The notes under the pieces: generated by a model
What the model was told of the DNA's origin: nothing
Databases searched by the model: none
The model's input: the letters and a program-made list of their open reading frames with translations, nothing else
Shown here: positions 1 through 8,003 of the stretch, piece by piece
How the letters are laid out: each line of letters begins with the position of its first letter
Position numbering within the stretch: the stretch's first letter is position 1
Made by a program: the position numbers and the translations under genes
Assembly (NCBI GenBank): GCA_015075325.1
Contig: JABTUP010000002.1
Span: 1 to 64,000 of the forward strand
Reading direction: 5' to 3'
Length of the DNA: 64,000 nucleotides
From: Flavobacteriales bacterium
Lineage (GTDB): Bacteria > Bacteroidota > Bacteroidia > Flavobacteriales_E > Vicingaceae

Positions 1-3000
1 CTCCATTCATAACCTGATGCTCCACTCGCTGTTAAAGTTGTTGCCTCACCTTCACAAAGATTATTATTACCCGATACAACAATTGTTGGTAATGGATTTA
101 CAGTTATTGTTATTTGAGCCGTTGTAAAACAACCCAATCCAGCAGTTGGGGTAAAGGTATAAGTTGTTGTAGTGGTATTATCTATAGCTGGCGACCATGT
201 TCCCGACACACCATTTGTTGAAGTGGTAGGAAGTGGCGATATAACATCTCCACTACATACTGGAGATACTCCAGCAAAGGTTGGAGTAACATTTGTATTT
301 ACTACAATTTCTAACGTTGTAGTTGTGGCACATTGTCCTGCTGTTGGTGTAAAAGTATAGGTAGTCGTTGTAGTATTATCCAATGCCGGACTCCATGCTC
401 CTGTTATTCCATTGGTTGAAGTGGTTGATAATGGCGATAGAGCATCTCCCGTACATATTGGTGCTACTGCAGCAAATGTTGGGGTGGTTGGAGTTGAATT
501 TACTACGATTTCTAATGTTGTAGTTGTGGCACATTGTCCTGCTGTTGGCGTAAAAGTATAGGTAGTCGTTGAGGTATTATCTAATGCTGGACTCCATGTT
601 CCAGTTATTCCATTAATTGAAGTGGTTGGCAAAGGTGATAGAGCATCTCCTATACATATCGGTGCTACAGCTGCAAATGTTGGGGTTGCTGGAGTTGAAT
701 TTACCGAAATCTCCAAAGTTGCAGTTGTAGCACATTGTCCGGCTGTTGGTGTAAAAGTATAGGTAGTCGTTGTGGTATTATCCAATGCTGGACTCCATGT
801 TCCTGTTATCCCATTGGTTGAAGTAGTTGGTAATGGTGATAGAGCATCTCCTGTACATATTGGTGCTACGGCTGCAAAGGTTGGTATAACATTCGTGTCT
901 ACTATTATTTCTAATGTTGTGATTGTTGCACATTGTCCTGCTGTTGGGGTAAACGTATAGGTCGTGGTAGTAGTATTATCCAATGCCGGACTCCATGTTC
1001 CTGTTATCCCATTGGTTGAAGTGGTTGGTAATGCAGATAACGAACCACCACTACATATTGGAGATACTGAAGCAAAGGTTGGAGTAACGTTTGTATTTAC
1101 AACTATTTCTAATGTTGTGGTTGTGGCACATTGTCCTGCTGTTGGGGTAAATGTATAGGTAGTAGTTGTAGTATTATCCAATGCCGGACTCCATGTTCCT
1201 GTTATCCCATTAGTTGAAGTGGTTGGTAATGCAGATAATGAACCGCCACTACATATTGGAGATACTGAAGCAAATGTTGGGGTAGTTGCAGAATTTACCG
1301 TTACGGTCACAGAAACTCTAGTTGCACTAACACAAGATCCATCAGAATTACTGACTGTTTGGACATAATAAGTTGTAGTAGTTGTAGGGGATACTGAAAG
1401 TGGTGTCGTTCCCAAATTGTTTCCACCTGTGGGAGCATCCCAAACTTGATATGACACCCCAGAACTTGGTCCACTTGCAGTTATTGAAGTAGATTGTCCA
1501 GAACATATTGTAGCTGGGGTTGCAGTTACTGTTGTTGCCTCTAATGGAGCAACACAAGTAGTTTTTGTACAAACATAAGATGGGGTTGGTGAAATAGCAG
1601 TTCTGCTAATTGCAATTACATTTGAACCAGGAGTTAAAGACCATGCATTAAAAGATGGGTCTGAAGCAGTAGTTGGTCCAGCAGAAGCTGTTGGAGTAAA
1701 TACTGTGGCAGGGCATCCTGTTAACGGTGTTTCTCCAAGCGGATCTGTTTTAATAACATGATAATCGTAATTTGTTCCTCCAGCAGTCATTGACATTGCA
1801 ATATATCCATTATCAGATGTTTTGCTTCCTCTTGGTAAAATTGAAATTAAATTAAAATCGTATCTTTTAGCAAAATTGGTTGCTGTTGCTGTTGAATTAA
1901 ATCGATGTATAGCATTTGAAAATGTAAACGCAAGTGGTTGAATATACATCGACATTGTAGCGATATCTGTTCCTCCATTCACTTCATAGATTTGAGAGAT
2001 ATCAGCTACACTTGATAACCCTGGATAAGTAAACAAACGGCTATATGTTTGCGAAAAACCTCCAGCACCTGCATATTTTTGAATTAATTCTTTACCATTA
2101 TCAGAACCTCCTACAATAATTTCTCCAGTACTTGTTGTGTTAACTGCCCCGAAATATTTACTGTTTTGGGTTGGTGATGAATCAGGATTATCAACTTGTT
2201 TATGATAGGTAATAACACCAGCTGTTGTTGTTTTTAATATAATAGCATCTGTTGGTGTTGCATCATCTCCATCACTATTGGTTGCTGATAAATGGTTGTT
2301 TACATCATAACTACCAACAGCAACATAACCATCGCTTACCTCAACAACATCAACAAAGCTAGCATCATTGTAAATTCTGTTTGCGGGTGTATTAGCTCCC
2401 ATATAATATCTAAATACTTTATGCCAAACATGATTTCCACTTGCATCTAATTTTACAATTAATGGCGATCCTATCACTTCAGTTTGAGGGTCACCGTTAG
2501 CATCAGTATAATTTATTGGATTAAAATCAATTTCTGCACCACCTCCATCAGGATCAAGTCCTGTTACATAACCAACTGCAACATAACCTCCATCAGATGC
2601 TTTTATTACCCTATTAAACCAAGCTCCATTTGCTTCATTAATACTAAATTTCTTTTGAATAACAACAGTTCCTGAAGCATCTAAAACCATAAATACAGCA
2701 GCATTAGACTCACTTCCACCACAAGCAATATATTGGTTCGCTCCAGCATCTTTTTTTATGTCGTTTAATTGAAATCCAATGGAAGCATCAGAATAACGAA
2801 ATGACCAATTAATTCCTCCTGTATCATTTAGTTGTGTTACAGTTCCATAAATAGGAAGAAATGTCATATTTGTTCCTGCCATTACATAAGTATTTGGAGT
2901 TAGCCCTTCCACTATGTTGCCTGGCAAATCGAACATGGCCTGATTGTAATTTTTACGGAATGCAGTAGTGGTTTGTGCAAAAGTTGTAGGTACTGCAAAA

Positions 3001-3035
3001 ATCAAAACGAGTACTAATTGTGCAATTCTTTTCAT
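1..3035 (-). CDS. Large secreted repeat protein, probable T9SS cargo (3' end outside window)
   Basis: The frame is open from an ATG at 3035 to the left window edge (about 1011 codons), so the C-terminus is missing. It begins with a clear signal peptide (MKRIAQLVLVLIFAVPTTFAQ). The first ~450 residues contain recurring stretches such as DGGYVAVGYV and KLDASGNHVWHKVF, which look like beta-propeller-type repeats of secreted Bacteroidota proteins. After residue ~500 come Ig-like modules, then at least five near-identical 66-67 residue units (PICSGGSLSALPTTSTNG, WSPALDNTTTTTYTFTP). Such modules commonly precede a gliding-motility-type T9SS sorting domain, which is inferred to lie beyond the edge. 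It starts 10 nt after the PorP/SprF gene and is probably co-transcribed with it. Its exact ligand or function cannot be told from sequence. Confidence 0.85.
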   Translation of the reverse strand, partial: MKRIAQLVLVLIFAVPTTFAQTTTAFRKNYNQAMFDLPGNIVEGLTPNTYVMAGTNMTFLPIYGTVTQLNDTGGINWSFRYSDASIGFQLNDIKKDAGANQYIACGGSESNAAVFMVLDASGTVVIQKKFSINEANGAWFNRVIKASDGGYVAVGYVTGLDPDGGGAEIDFNPINYTDANGDPQTEVIGSPLIVKLDASGNHVWHKVFRYYMGANTPANRIYNDASFVDVVEVSDGYVAVGSYDVNNHLSATNSDGDDATPTDAIILKTTTAGVITYHKQVDNPDSSPTQNSKYFGAVNTTSTGEIIVGGSDNGKELIQKYAGAGGFSQTYSRLFTYPGLSSVADISQIYEVNGGTDIATMSMYIQPLAFTFSNAIHRFNSTATATNFAKRYDFNLISILPRGSKTSDNGYIAMSMTAGGTNYDYHVIKTDPLGETPLTGCPATVFTPTASAGPTTASDPSFNAWSLTPGSNVIAISRTAISPTPSYVCTKTTCVAPLEATTVTATPATICSGQSTSITASGPSSGVSYQVWDAPTGGNNLGTTPLSVSPTTTTTYYVQTVSNSDGSCVSATRVSVTVTVNSATTPTFASVSPICSGGSLSALPTTSTNGITGTWSPALDNTTTTTYTFTPTAGQCATTTTLEIVVNTNVTPTFASVSPICSGGSLSALPTTSTNGITGTWSPALDNTTTTTYTFTPTAGQCATITTLEIIVDTNVIPTFAAVAPICTGDALSPLPTTSTNGITGTWSPALDNTTTTTYTFTPTAGQCATTATLEISVNSTPATPTFAAVAPICIGDALSPLPTTSINGITGTWSPALDNTSTTTYTFTPTAGQCATTTTLEIVVNSTPTTPTFAAVAPICTGDALSPLSTTSTNGITGAWSPALDNTTTTTYTFTPTAGQCATTTTLEIVVNTNVTPTFAGVSPVCSGDVISPLPTTSTNGVSGTWSPAIDNTTTTTYTFTPTAGLGCFTTAQITITVNPLPTIVVSGNNNLCEGEATTLTASGASGYEW
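120..1290 (-). repeat. Tandem 198/201-bp coding repeats
   Basis: The motif cattgtcctgctgttgg recurs at about 331, 532, 733, 931 and 1129, giving spacings of 201, 201, 198 and 198 bp, with a more diverged unit at about 120-330. All spacings are multiples of three and encode one Ig-like module of 66-67 residues (SGGSLSALPTTSTNGITGTW core). The near-identity at DNA level suggests recent duplication or homogenisation. Confidence 0.9.
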
Positions 3036-3045
3036 GGTTAATTAT

Positions 3046-4125
3046 TTAGTTAAAACGTGCATTAGATTTTGTTCCTTTTCCATTTATATAAGGTATGAAA
3101 ACGTATTTTAAATAAATTTCTGGACCTCCATTACCTCCAGTTGCAACTGATAAATCGGATATATTCATATCGTAAGAAACTCCAACTGCCAATCCAGAAG
3201 TTTCAAATTCGACTGATGGAGCAATTGCATCTCCTAAACGAAAATATGTTCCGAAAGAAATAGCCATTTCTTTAAATATTCCTGTGTATTTTGATTCTTC
3301 TTTTATCATATACCTTCCAAGAATACCTCCCGTAATTTGCCTTGCTGGTCCTTGAAAATAAGTAAAAAGTTTTGGCTTTAATGCCCATTTTGAGTTAAAC
3401 AACCCAATAACTGATTCGGCATGAATTGCCCATCTGGAATATAATCTATCCAAATCTCCAAATTCTAATTGACGACTAGGACGAGTAACATGATAAAAAG
3501 CAATTCCGGCTTGCATGGTAAAATTATTAAATGAACTTAAGGTACTGGCAGATTCGCCATAAGCCCAAAGTGCACCTGCCGAATAATCAAAATAATTAGT
3601 GTTTTCAAATTGAAAACTTTCTAAACTTGGAGCCATCGGGTCAAATGTTTGTCCGTTGAACTGAGAATCCCATCTCATGTTTTCGCTACTAATACTGTTT
3701 TGTGCCCATGAGCCTAACAAACCAACCGAAGCAGAGTTTTTATCATTCAAATATAAAACACTTGAAAGAGCTAAATTTATTTTAGTTGTTCCCAATTTGT
3801 TTTCTCCTGCAACATCACGATATGCTCCTAATCCTAATCCTAAATAACCATTTCTCCAATTGTTTTTTAATATTCCTCCATCAACCATTACTGCATAAGT
3901 GTTATAAGCATTTCCAATTCCAGCCCACTGGTTTCTGTAATTTAACACACCTCTAAACGCACCATTAAAAACCCCTGCACTAGCTGGATTAGTAGTAACA
4001 GGCATTGCATCATACATCGTAAAATGGATATCCTGAGCTTTTAAATTGAAAATTGAAAATTGAAAACTTAGAACTAGCAACACAACTGGTGTTAACTTCT
4101 CGTTTAATATGTTATTAATTATCAT
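3046..4125 (-). CDS. PorP/SprF family T9SS membrane protein
   Basis: The 359-residue protein starts with a signal peptide ending at LKAQ and continues with DIHFTMYDAMPVTTNPASAG, the hallmark N-terminus of PorP/SprF family outer membrane proteins. The family normally has ~300-350 residues and forms a small beta-barrel. Members are typically encoded next to giant T9SS substrates with type B (gliding motility-associated) C-terminal domains and are needed to export or anchor that partner. Here it lies between such a substrate (4154-7942) and another repeat-rich secreted protein (1-3035), all on the minus strand and closely spaced. The end of the signal peptide (residues ~20-29, FQFSIFNLKA) is encoded by a tandem AT-rich repeat, which is unusual. 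Confidence 0.93.
   Translation of the reverse strand: MIINNILNEKLTPVVLLVLSFQFSIFNLKAQDIHFTMYDAMPVTTNPASAGVFNGAFRGVLNYRNQWAGIGNAYNTYAVMVDGGILKNNWRNGYLGLGLGAYRDVAGENKLGTTKINLALSSVLYLNDKNSASVGLLGSWAQNSISSENMRWDSQFNGQTFDPMAPSLESFQFENTNYFDYSAGALWAYGESASTLSSFNNFTMQAGIAFYHVTRPSRQLEFGDLDRLYSRWAIHAESVIGLFNSKWALKPKLFTYFQGPARQITGGILGRYMIKEESKYTGIFKEMAISFGTYFRLGDAIAPSVEFETSGLAVGVSYDMNISDLSVATGGNGGPEIYLKYVFIPYINGKGTKSNARFN
4039..4067. repeat. AT-rich tandem repeat inside the PorP signal peptide
   Basis: Three or so copies of ttgaaaat/attgaaaac lie in tandem. They encode the FQFSIFNLKA part of the signal peptide of the PorP/SprF gene. A related intergenic tandem (ttgataattgataattga) is present at 23831-23864. 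Confidence 0.7.
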
Positions 4126-4153: not shown

Positions 4154-7100
4154 TTATTTTATCAGCGTTATATCTCCTTTTTGTGTTACCTCGCTTCCAT
4201 CAATAAATGTTGCTTCTAAATAATAAACAAATACTGCTTTATTCATGACTTTCCCTCTAAAAGTTCCATCCCAACCCACATCTAAACGAGTGGTTTCAAA
4301 AACTTTTTCGCCCCATCTATCATAAATAAAGAATTTTAATTCCGCCACTCCTTTCCCTCTAACAAATAAAATATCATTTGCACCATCTCCGTTTGGCGAA
4401 AAAATATTTGGAACAAAAATTACGTTGTCGTATTTTACAAACAGGGTAATATTATCGGAAGAAACACATCCATTGGAGTCAGATGTAATAACTGTGTAGG
4501 TAATCGTTTCTTCAGGAGTTGAAATTGGATTTGGACAAGTTGAACAAGTTAAATCAATATCTGGAGATCATGTATAAACTCCATTAATAACACCAGTAGC
4601 AGTAAGGCTTACTGACTGACCCCATTGAATAGAAGTATCGTTACCTAAAATCACTTGTTGTGGCTCAAGAACCGTTATTGTATTGGAAATTGAATCAACA
4701 CCATAAGAATTGGAAACAATCAATTTCACTTCTTGTGTTCCTGCAACATTAAAACATACCGACCCTGGATTTTGATTAGTTGACGATAATGGTGTTCCAT
4801 TTTCAAATGTCCACTGCCAAGAAGTAGCACCAACACTTGTATTACCAAACACAACACATTCGCCTGCACAAATTGTAGAATCTCCCATAACAAAACCAGC
4901 AGTTGGAGGCGTGCATGAAGAAACAGTAATATAGCCAACTTTGGTTTCATCATCAGAGCCGTTTGCATCGGTAACTGTTAATACAACCTGATAAGTTCCT
5001 GGTGTATTATAACAAATATTAATTGGATTTTGTGATATCGATGAAGAAGGAGTAGCCCCAGTAAATGTCCATGCCCAAGAAGTAATTCCTCCAACAGCAG
5101 AGCTGGCACTCATATCAGTAAAGCTTATACATGCCCCCTCACAAATATTGGTTTGAGATGCTGCAAAGTTTGCTACAGGTAATGGATTTGTACAGTTATT
5201 AATTGTTATATTAAATGTTTGAGCATTGGGACACGACCCATTAGTTGTATAAGTAACGGTAAATGAGCCTGTTCCAGATGATGTTATATTTATTAAACCA
5301 GTACTAGCATTAATAACTCCTCCGTTATTTATAGTAAATATTCCTCCTGCTAGCCCTGTAATTATTGGTGTTGGGTTTGCATCAGTCAAACAAAAAGAAG
5401 TTGAAGCATAACTAAACGCAGGATTATCTGTTGCATTTACAACAATAGTCATGGTATCTACACTACCACATGAACCTGAAATAGTATAGGTAATAACATG
5501 ACTACCCACTCCTGCTGTTGTTGGATTAAAAGTACCTGTTGTTCCATCGGTAATTCCATTTCCCGACCATGTTCCGCCAGGACTTACTGCCGATAAATTT
5601 ACAGTAGAAGCATTCTGACAAAATGGACCAGCCTGTGTAATTGTTGCGTTTGTAGTGTTAGTAATCGTTATGTTAAAGGTATTGGTGTCTGGACATGCAC
5701 CAGAAGTTGTATAAGTTACAACAAACGAACCCAATCCTGAACCTGAAAGATTAATAACTCCTGTACTTGCATTTATTACACCACTATTATTAATAGTAAA
5801 TGTACCTCCTACTGTACCCGTTATACTTGGTGTAGGATTTGGATCAGACAAACAATAACTACCTGAAGGATAGGTAAATGAAGCATCACTTGATGGATTC
5901 ACTACAATAGTCATTGTATCAACAGCTCCACATGCTCCTGTTATGGTATAAGTAATTACATGATTACCTACCCCAGCGGTTGTAGGATTAAATGTACCTA
6001 AAGTACCATCTGTAATTCCTGTTCCTGTCCATGTTCCTCCTGGACTTACTGCCGATAAATTGATAGCCGTAGCATTCTGACAGAACGGACCAGCCTGTGT
6101 AATAGTAGCATCTGTACTAGAAGTAATGGTAACATTAAAGGTTGCTGAATTTGGGCAAGTTCCATTTGTGGTATATGTTACGGTATATGAACCTACACCA
6201 GAACCTGCTATATTAATAACTCCTGTACTAGCGTTAATTACCCCACTATTATTAATAGTAAATGTTCCCCCAGCTAATCCAGTAATTGTTGGTGTTGGAT
6301 TCGCATCTGTTAAACAATAACTCCCTGAAGCGTATGAAAATACAGCATTATCTAGAGTATTAACAACAATAGTTTCTATATCAACATCACCACAACCTAA
6401 GGTATAAGTAATAGTATGGCTACCTACTCCCGCTGTTGCTGGATTAAATGTTCCATTTGAAGCATTAGTAATTCCAGGTCCACTCCAAGTACCACCAGTT
6501 TCAGCAGCTGTTAAATTTACAGCAGCAGCGTTTATACAAAATGGTCCAGCAGCAGTAATGGTAGCATCGCAAGACGCAGAGCAGTTTGGTAAAGTAGAAA
6601 GATTTGTAATTTCAAGTACATTTCCACCGCCGTCGGTAACCTGAATTTGAGTTGCTCCACCAGGAGGAGTTACAGTAGTACCCGTAGCAAAATTGACATA
6701 CCCTGGAGTTGAACAAGATGAAACCGAACAAGATGGAGGTACTATAGGTGGAAAACCAGGATTCCAAGTACCACCACATGTAGTGCAATCGGTTTGGTTA
6801 GCTGGTGTAATGGTTGTGGTTGCCCAATTATCCCATGTATAAGGACCAGTTCCTCCAGAAACGGTTAAATCGCCATTCGATTCTTTACAAACAGTCAATA
6901 CTGAACATGAATTAACATTTATAGAAACTGTATCAGCACAACCCATCGTAGATGTGAATGTAATAGTATGTACACCACTTCCTGCAACTGAAGGATTAAA
7001 AGTACCCAGAGAAGCATTTGTTATTCCAGTTCCACTCCATGTTCCAGATACTGGTGTAGAAGAACATGTTGCTCCATTCATAGCTGAAGTTGCTGTTAAA

Positions 7101-7942
7101 TTTATAGATGCGTCCGTTACACAAAATGAAGCATCATAACCTGAACCTGAATCTGCCAACCATGAATCACAATCAGTATTACCCGCTATCTGAATATCTA
7201 CTTGGCAACATGAACCTGCTTCAACACTAACATCATCAACATAGTAGTATCCAAAAGGGTTTGGAAAAGCTGGTTGACCTGTGTTTGCAGTAGTAGTTGC
7301 TCCATTATTAAAGAAATTACCTATGATTATATATTGCTCTCCTCCCACAGCAACATAATCCCACTGTAGTCTAACCCAAGTTGTATCGGTAAAAACGCAA
7401 GTATAATTTAATTGAGGGGTTAGGGGCACTGGTGTAAATGGTGAAAAGCAAGGAGCATTCCACGTTTGATGAGTATTAGCAAAATGAACCCCAATATTAT
7501 TTGTTGCGAAAGGGACACCATCAGCCAAACTTACAAACATGGCTACACAGTATATCTGCCCTGCCTGCAAAGGAGTCGATAATTTTCCTTGAAGATATTC
7601 TCTATAACTTCCAGTTACATCGTAGGTAATGAATCCAGCATATTTTTCTCCTGTTCTCGGACATTGATACCCCAGTGCATTTGACGGCACACCTGTAACT
7701 CCAAGACTTGCATTACATGTAGAAAATAAATCAGGGGTAGAACAAGTATCTGCTGGAGTATTGTTACTTACATTATCCCAATCTATTAAATCTATCATCC
7801 CTTCAGCTGGTATAATCCCAGCACATCCATTTGCAGTTTGTTCGAAACTTGGATTTAAAACTAAATTTTGTGCGTAACTGTAAAAATTAGACAACAAAAA
7901 CAAAAGAGAAAATAGTACTATTTTAGACTGTATTTTAAGCAT
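4154..7942 (-). pseudogene. Giant T9SS type B adhesin interrupted by an in-frame TGA
   Basis: One frame encodes about 1262 residues but is split by a TGA at 4568-4570. Upstream: signal peptide (MLKIQSKIVLFSLLFLLSNF), an N-terminal carbohydrate-binding-like domain (NLVLNPSFEQ to YYYVDDVSVEAGSCC, ~25-255), alternating Ig-like modules (FCQNATAINLSAVSPGGTW and SYCLTDANPTPTITGLAGG types), then two PKD domains (SWAWTFTG, SWQWTFENG). Immediately after the stop the same frame continues SPDIDLTCSTCPNP and a complete gliding-motility-type sorting domain (FVPNIFSPNGDGANDILFV, YDRWGEKVFE) to a TAA at 4154. The conserved residue at the stop is Trp (YTWSP in the family), so TGG to TGA is the simplest explanation. 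Without readthrough the protein lacks its T9SS export signal. Start at 7942 is preferred over 7984 because a promoter box overlaps the longer start. Confidence 0.85.
5190..6560 (-). repeat. Tandem ~460-bp coding repeats in the T9SS adhesin
   Basis: The block containing ccagcctgtgtaat recurs at about 5628 and 6089 (spacing ~462 bp, 154 codons), with flanking partial copies. Each unit encodes a pair of Ig-like modules, one beginning ITQAGPFCQNA and one beginning SYCLTDANPTPTITG. Confidence 0.8.
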
Positions 7943-7972
7943 TTGGAAGTTCACTTTAAATTTGTTTACAAT

Positions 7973-8003
7973 CAAAAATAACATCTATGTATTTAATGTT
8001 AAA
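7973..8003 (-). promoter_or_regulatory. Probable promoter of the T9SS adhesin gene
   Basis: On the minus strand TATTTTTG (complement of 7973-7980) fits the Bacteroidota -7 box TAnnTTTG, with TTTA 19 bp further upstream at the -33 position. The -7 box overlaps the first possible ATG (7984), which argues that translation begins at the ATG at 7942. Confidence 0.6.

Follow-up and report, generated by a model that had tools for sequence, protein, structure and literature searches.

Introduction

Substrates of the T9SS require their CTD for crossing the outer membrane, and secretion or anchoring of the type B substrates tested depends on PorP/SprF-like proteins, according to PMC9143113 and PMC12618676; the same work describes type B signals up to 235 aa long and a periplasmic reporter which, without the CTD, was seen in the cell extract only. 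PMC8400371 describes an F. psychrophilum isolate whose gldB acquired a premature stop by a single mutation. Among the titles that we surveyed on stop codons, pseudogenes and MAGs, none concerned T9SS adhesins.

Here, we analyze a locus of the latter kind from a Flavobacteriales bacterium, located in a 64,000-nucleotide stretch of DNA (hereafter, the window). The locus resembles SprB-SprF of Flavobacterium johnsoniae, a system with a type B CTD (TIGR04131), in that it encodes an adhesin with PKD domains and repeats, a CHU_C/TIGR04131 C-terminus, and an adjacent gene of the PorP/SprF family. A first-pass annotation of the window, made from the sequence alone, had claimed that an in-frame TGA separates this adhesin from its export signal, and had proposed a very recent mutation, a sequencing error, phase variation or recoding as the cause.

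Results

Organization of the interrupted adhesin locus

Positions 4568-4570 of the window read tca on the plus strand, i.e., TGA on the minus strand, where they terminate an ORF of 1138 aa (4568..7984). If the TGA is read through, the frame extends from 7984 to a TAA at 4154-4156, for a total of 1276 codons, with the TGA, at residue 1139, as the sole internal stop; the 1262 codons of the first-pass annotation, which had likewise found nothing else wrong in the frame, correspond to a count from the second ATG, at residue 15. The split itself is thus as described: the N-terminal portion of a T9SS adhesin of type B (4571..7984, minus strand), with internal repeats and two PKD_4 stretches, the best of which matches at residues 934-1021 (4922..5185, minus strand), is followed by a tail of 137 codons (4154..4567, minus strand) that contains the export signal and ends in the TAA of the full frame. 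By eye, a hydrophobic stretch at residues 15-39, ending in YAQ, looks like a Sec signal peptide.

The CHU_C (PF13585)/T9SS type B sorting domain (TIGR04131) is intact in the downstream piece (4166..4417, minus strand), with profile matches of 61.9 bits for PF13585 (cut-off 27) and 52.8 bits for TIGR04131 (cut-off 35); the whole read-through frame scores lower (59.4 and 47.6 bits, respectively). Read-through accordingly restores a sorting domain, as had been claimed, but the TGA does not lie within it: the stop precedes the CHU_C match, which begins at residue 1190, by 51 residues, in a segment that, by eye, follows the pattern YxWxP...L.C..C. The domain is present in the DNA but, being located behind the TGA, is not part of the same product as the adhesin body, so that the reported loss of the T9SS signal holds. 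The first in-frame ATG of the tail is codon 108 and the first GTG is codon 74, inside the CHU_C domain, which argues against re-initiation; an ATG overlapping the TGA was also considered and rejected, because it opens a different frame that closes soon (by eye).

Immediately downstream lies an intact gene for a PorP/SprF-family T9SS membrane protein (3046..4125, minus strand; TIGR03519, 145.4 bits, cut-off 90.55), presumably the cognate shuttle or anchor, in the linkage expected of a type B substrate. Next to it is a second adhesin-like gene with Ig_7 (3..3035, minus strand), open at the contig start. Tandem repeats occur within both adhesin genes, at 138-1284 (198 bp x 5.8) and at 5238-6373 (462 bp x 2.5). 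The TGA is 4.6 kb from the contig end, in a genome that is a draft of 62 contigs. In the interval 4300-4850, we found no direct or inverted repeats of at least 12 bases, and a search of the genome (E 0.001 or better) returned no second copy covering the TGA; on these grounds, we discarded gene conversion from a paralog.

Conservation of the tryptophan codon

The adhesin protein was matched in 59 of 60 genomes, including the window's own, mostly by partial matches and with many paralogs. In the local alignment of 96 rows, the column of the TGA holds 83 W, 3 stops, 9 other residues and 1 gap; the 3 stops are overlapping pieces of the window gene itself, and the 10 rows with neither W nor stop either repeat a locus that already has a row or align at 25-28% identity. 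At the codon level, all 15 aligned rows, which represent 11 distinct genes selected for closer inspection from 9 genomes (53-64% identity), have TGG at this position, in agreement with the claim of a conserved Trp; this alignment leaves out a second copy in genome G019 (contig C9) and a stretch in G003 that gave no C-terminal match. Ten of these 11 genes have a PorP-like gene (48-65%) beside them on the stretch examined. A search of genome contigs, in which the same genome or one very near to it may be missing, yielded 4 loci (36-44% identity) and no genome of the same species, and a search of viral contigs with a 38-base pattern gave 0 matches.

UGA as a stop codon in this genome

Release factor 2 (RF2) is present (460.9 bits, cut-off 370), and AGGGGGTATCTTTGAC, the classic UGA frameshift site, precedes the main frame of its gene. 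The RF2 match contains one TAG and one TAA; stops of this kind occur upstream of the frameshift site in the phase of the main frame, where the gene is read in the other phase up to AGGGGGTATCTTTGAC. The site is identical to that of Escherichia coli prfB as given in PMC8710568, which reports that 523 of 726 Bacteroidia genomes have a frameshifted prfB. Because autoregulation of RF2 requires termination by RF2 at UGA, the presence of the frameshift site indicates that UGA is read as a stop.

The tRNA complement points in the same direction. The first-pass annotation had suggested a search for release factor 2 and for a tRNA-Trp with a UCA anticodon; RF2 was found, as described above, and among 35 tRNA hits, obtained from 150 of 284 candidates scored, none has a UCA anticodon and the sole tRNA-Trp has CCA. 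ARAGORN names 34 of the 35 hits; the remaining one (C8:1522-1595) is named only under other settings, as tRNA-Ser(tga), which reads the codon UCA, and comprises 74 bases, compared to 80-plus in the other Ser tRNAs. SelB (188.6 bits, cut-off 242.25) and tRNA-Sec (42.6, cut-off 47) both score below threshold, and selenocysteine was rejected on this basis. Neither of the hallmarks of recoded UGA, a UCA-anticodon tRNA-Trp (within the set scored) or loss of RF2, was detected, and a change of the genetic code was rejected in view of the RF2 gene with its UGA frameshift site and of the CCA-only tRNA-Trp. On the 261-kb contig C12, the 156 non-overlapping ORFs with 150 aa or more, including the window adhesin, end in TAA (117), TAG (24) or TGA (15), and another CHU_C gene of the genome (C12:186936-187775) ends at a TGA 12 codons past its match. 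Thus, the bacterium appears to use the standard genetic code.

Interrupted adhesins in the genome and genus

In-frame extensions of at least 120 codons past the stop follow 14 of the 156 ORFs on C12; when read by eye, 13 are apparently separate neighbouring ORFs, and only that of the window adhesin continues the same protein. The window's genome contains 45 CHU_C matches over the cut-off. Across the genus, PF13585 gave 182 matches in 4 genomes, and among the matches listed, 8 have an open frame below 200 aa, namely, the window gene, a decayed copy on C7, five whose frame reaches a contig end, and one on C3 of G002 which, by eye, looks like a small but complete gene whose start resembles a signal. 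Contig-end frames aside, the matches listed for the 4 genomes include no other adhesin that a stop, within about 200 codons, separates from an intact CHU_C domain; frames above 200 aa may still hide a stop farther upstream, as in the case of G001 contig C100 (299 aa).

There, a CHU_C adhesin of this sister genome (C100:1-1066) is interrupted by an in-frame TGA that lies within a repeat domain, about 165 bases into the contig, with both the frame past the TGA and the adjoining PorP-like gene open. In the window's genome, the heavily decayed CHU_C stretch lies at C7:1200-3600 (match C7:1696-1914, with two TAG and four TAA) beside a frame-broken PorP-like reading (by eye). Both cases fit ordinary decay or draft errors. 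Three further CHU_C matches, at C1:144404, 148727 and 153050, have equal scores and a spacing of exactly 4323 bases, possibly a tandem triplication of a whole adhesin gene. In sister genome G003, one end of C15 truncates a related adhesin, whereas its opposite end, like the end of C78, contains a PorP C-terminus of 39 residues; these pieces are perhaps a multi-copy module that the assembler did not resolve.

Discussion

The locus probably carries a nonsense substitution of an ordinary kind, in a type B T9SS adhesin gene that is itself probably dispensable, one of many paralogs in a bacterium with the standard code. This reading follows from the clean, lone stop in 1276 codons, the TGG in 11 of the 11 homologous genes examined, and the signs of a working UGA stop; in short, a premature stop compared with intact homologs, in an organism in which UGA is a stop. 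Given the 45 CHU_C matches, one of which, on C7, has decayed with six stops, there is room to lose one adhesin. Set against this explanation, there is no sign of decay beyond the TGA, and the PorP-like gene and the adjoining adhesin-like frame are open. We infer that the allele exists in cells. Under this scenario, ribosomes would halt at the UGA of the adhesin frame, and the 1138-aa product, with its Sec signal (by eye) but without a CTD, would enter the periplasm, where it would be neither exported by the T9SS nor passed to the adjacent PorP/SprF partner. Considering that the CTD is needed for passage across the outer membrane and that the CTD-less reporter was seen in the cell extract only, the truncated adhesin should stay in the periplasm. 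The 137-codon tail would presumably go untranslated, as it lacks a signal peptide and its first ATG is codon 108.

Alternatively, the TGA could be an assembly or consensus error, or a minority-strain base in a population consensus, with the gene intact in most cells. We consider this unlikely, albeit not to the point of setting it aside: the genome is a 62-contig draft, the 198-bp repeat array by the contig start (138-1284) is only 3.3 kb from the TGA, exactly one codon in 1276 is deviant, and the fragments of the related gene and of the PorP C-terminus at contig ends in G003 indicate that such loci can assemble badly. However, the TGA itself has neither a repeat nor a second copy, and consensus errors of this kind are infrequent per gene. 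A single nonsense codon with no other stop in the frame implies that the change is recent or an error, the two options that the first-pass annotation had placed side by side. The clean tail does not separate them: only 56 of 1224 single substitutions in it (about 4.6%) create a stop, so that the absence of a second one says only that few neutral changes have accumulated, and does not tell a recent mutation from a consensus error.

Readthrough of the UGA, through a suppressor tRNA, code change, selenocysteine or leaky termination, would yield some full-length, exported adhesin, and the open frame with an intact signal domain past the TGA is what such a mechanism would leave. The G001 adhesin also has an in-frame TGA, and among the listed matches to the adhesin protein across the 60 genomes, the two entries that contain internal stops both have TGA and come from this genus. 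Nevertheless, we regard readthrough as very improbable, in view of the RF2 frameshift site, the scored tRNA set and the subthreshold SelB and tRNA-Sec, all of which speak against the recoding event raised by the first-pass annotation. Furthermore, TGG in all homologous genes examined implies that there is no conserved programmed UGA, the 100 bases downstream fold at -8.3 kcal/mol (a single fold, without a shuffle control), and the G001 TGA is at a different place and in a different domain. A still bolder version, in which a leaky UGA before the export signal tunes type B adhesins of the genus, with the window gene and the G001 gene as two cases, such that few full-length molecules are displayed and most remain periplasmic, strikes us as highly implausible. 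Finally, a phase-variable switch by repeat slippage, inversion or cassette exchange, also proposed previously and suggested by the tandem repeats within the adhesin gene and its neighbour and by the frequency with which adhesins are targets of phase variation, has a negligible chance of being correct, because the change is a base substitution, neither a length change nor an inversion, and has no visible basis in a repeat (at least 12 bases, within 4300-4850) or a second copy (E 0.001 or better).

Returning to the nonsense substitution, with the standard code apparent, the stop is most likely an inactivating mutation or a draft consensus error, not new decoding. If the locus is what it appears to be, it is one more broken adhesin among 45 CHU_C matches and matters little in itself. 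It does provide a clean negative: where the RF2 gene has a UGA autoregulation site, a perfect read-through past an in-frame TGA does not count as evidence for recoding. Should the allele be fixed, the strain would be a natural source of a CTD-less type B substrate.

Among known systems, the RF2 gene prfB, with its programmed +1 frameshift, has its site in the same genome, but by eye no comparable site accompanies the TGA of the adhesin, whose open frame goes on in the same phase, unshifted. The likeness is to ordinary single-nonsense pseudogenes or alleles, with one substitution, the remaining frame open and a standard code, although the window TGA is known from one draft assembly only. The difference from adhesins of the SprB-SprF type is that, in the window gene, a TGA parts the body of the adhesin from its CTD.
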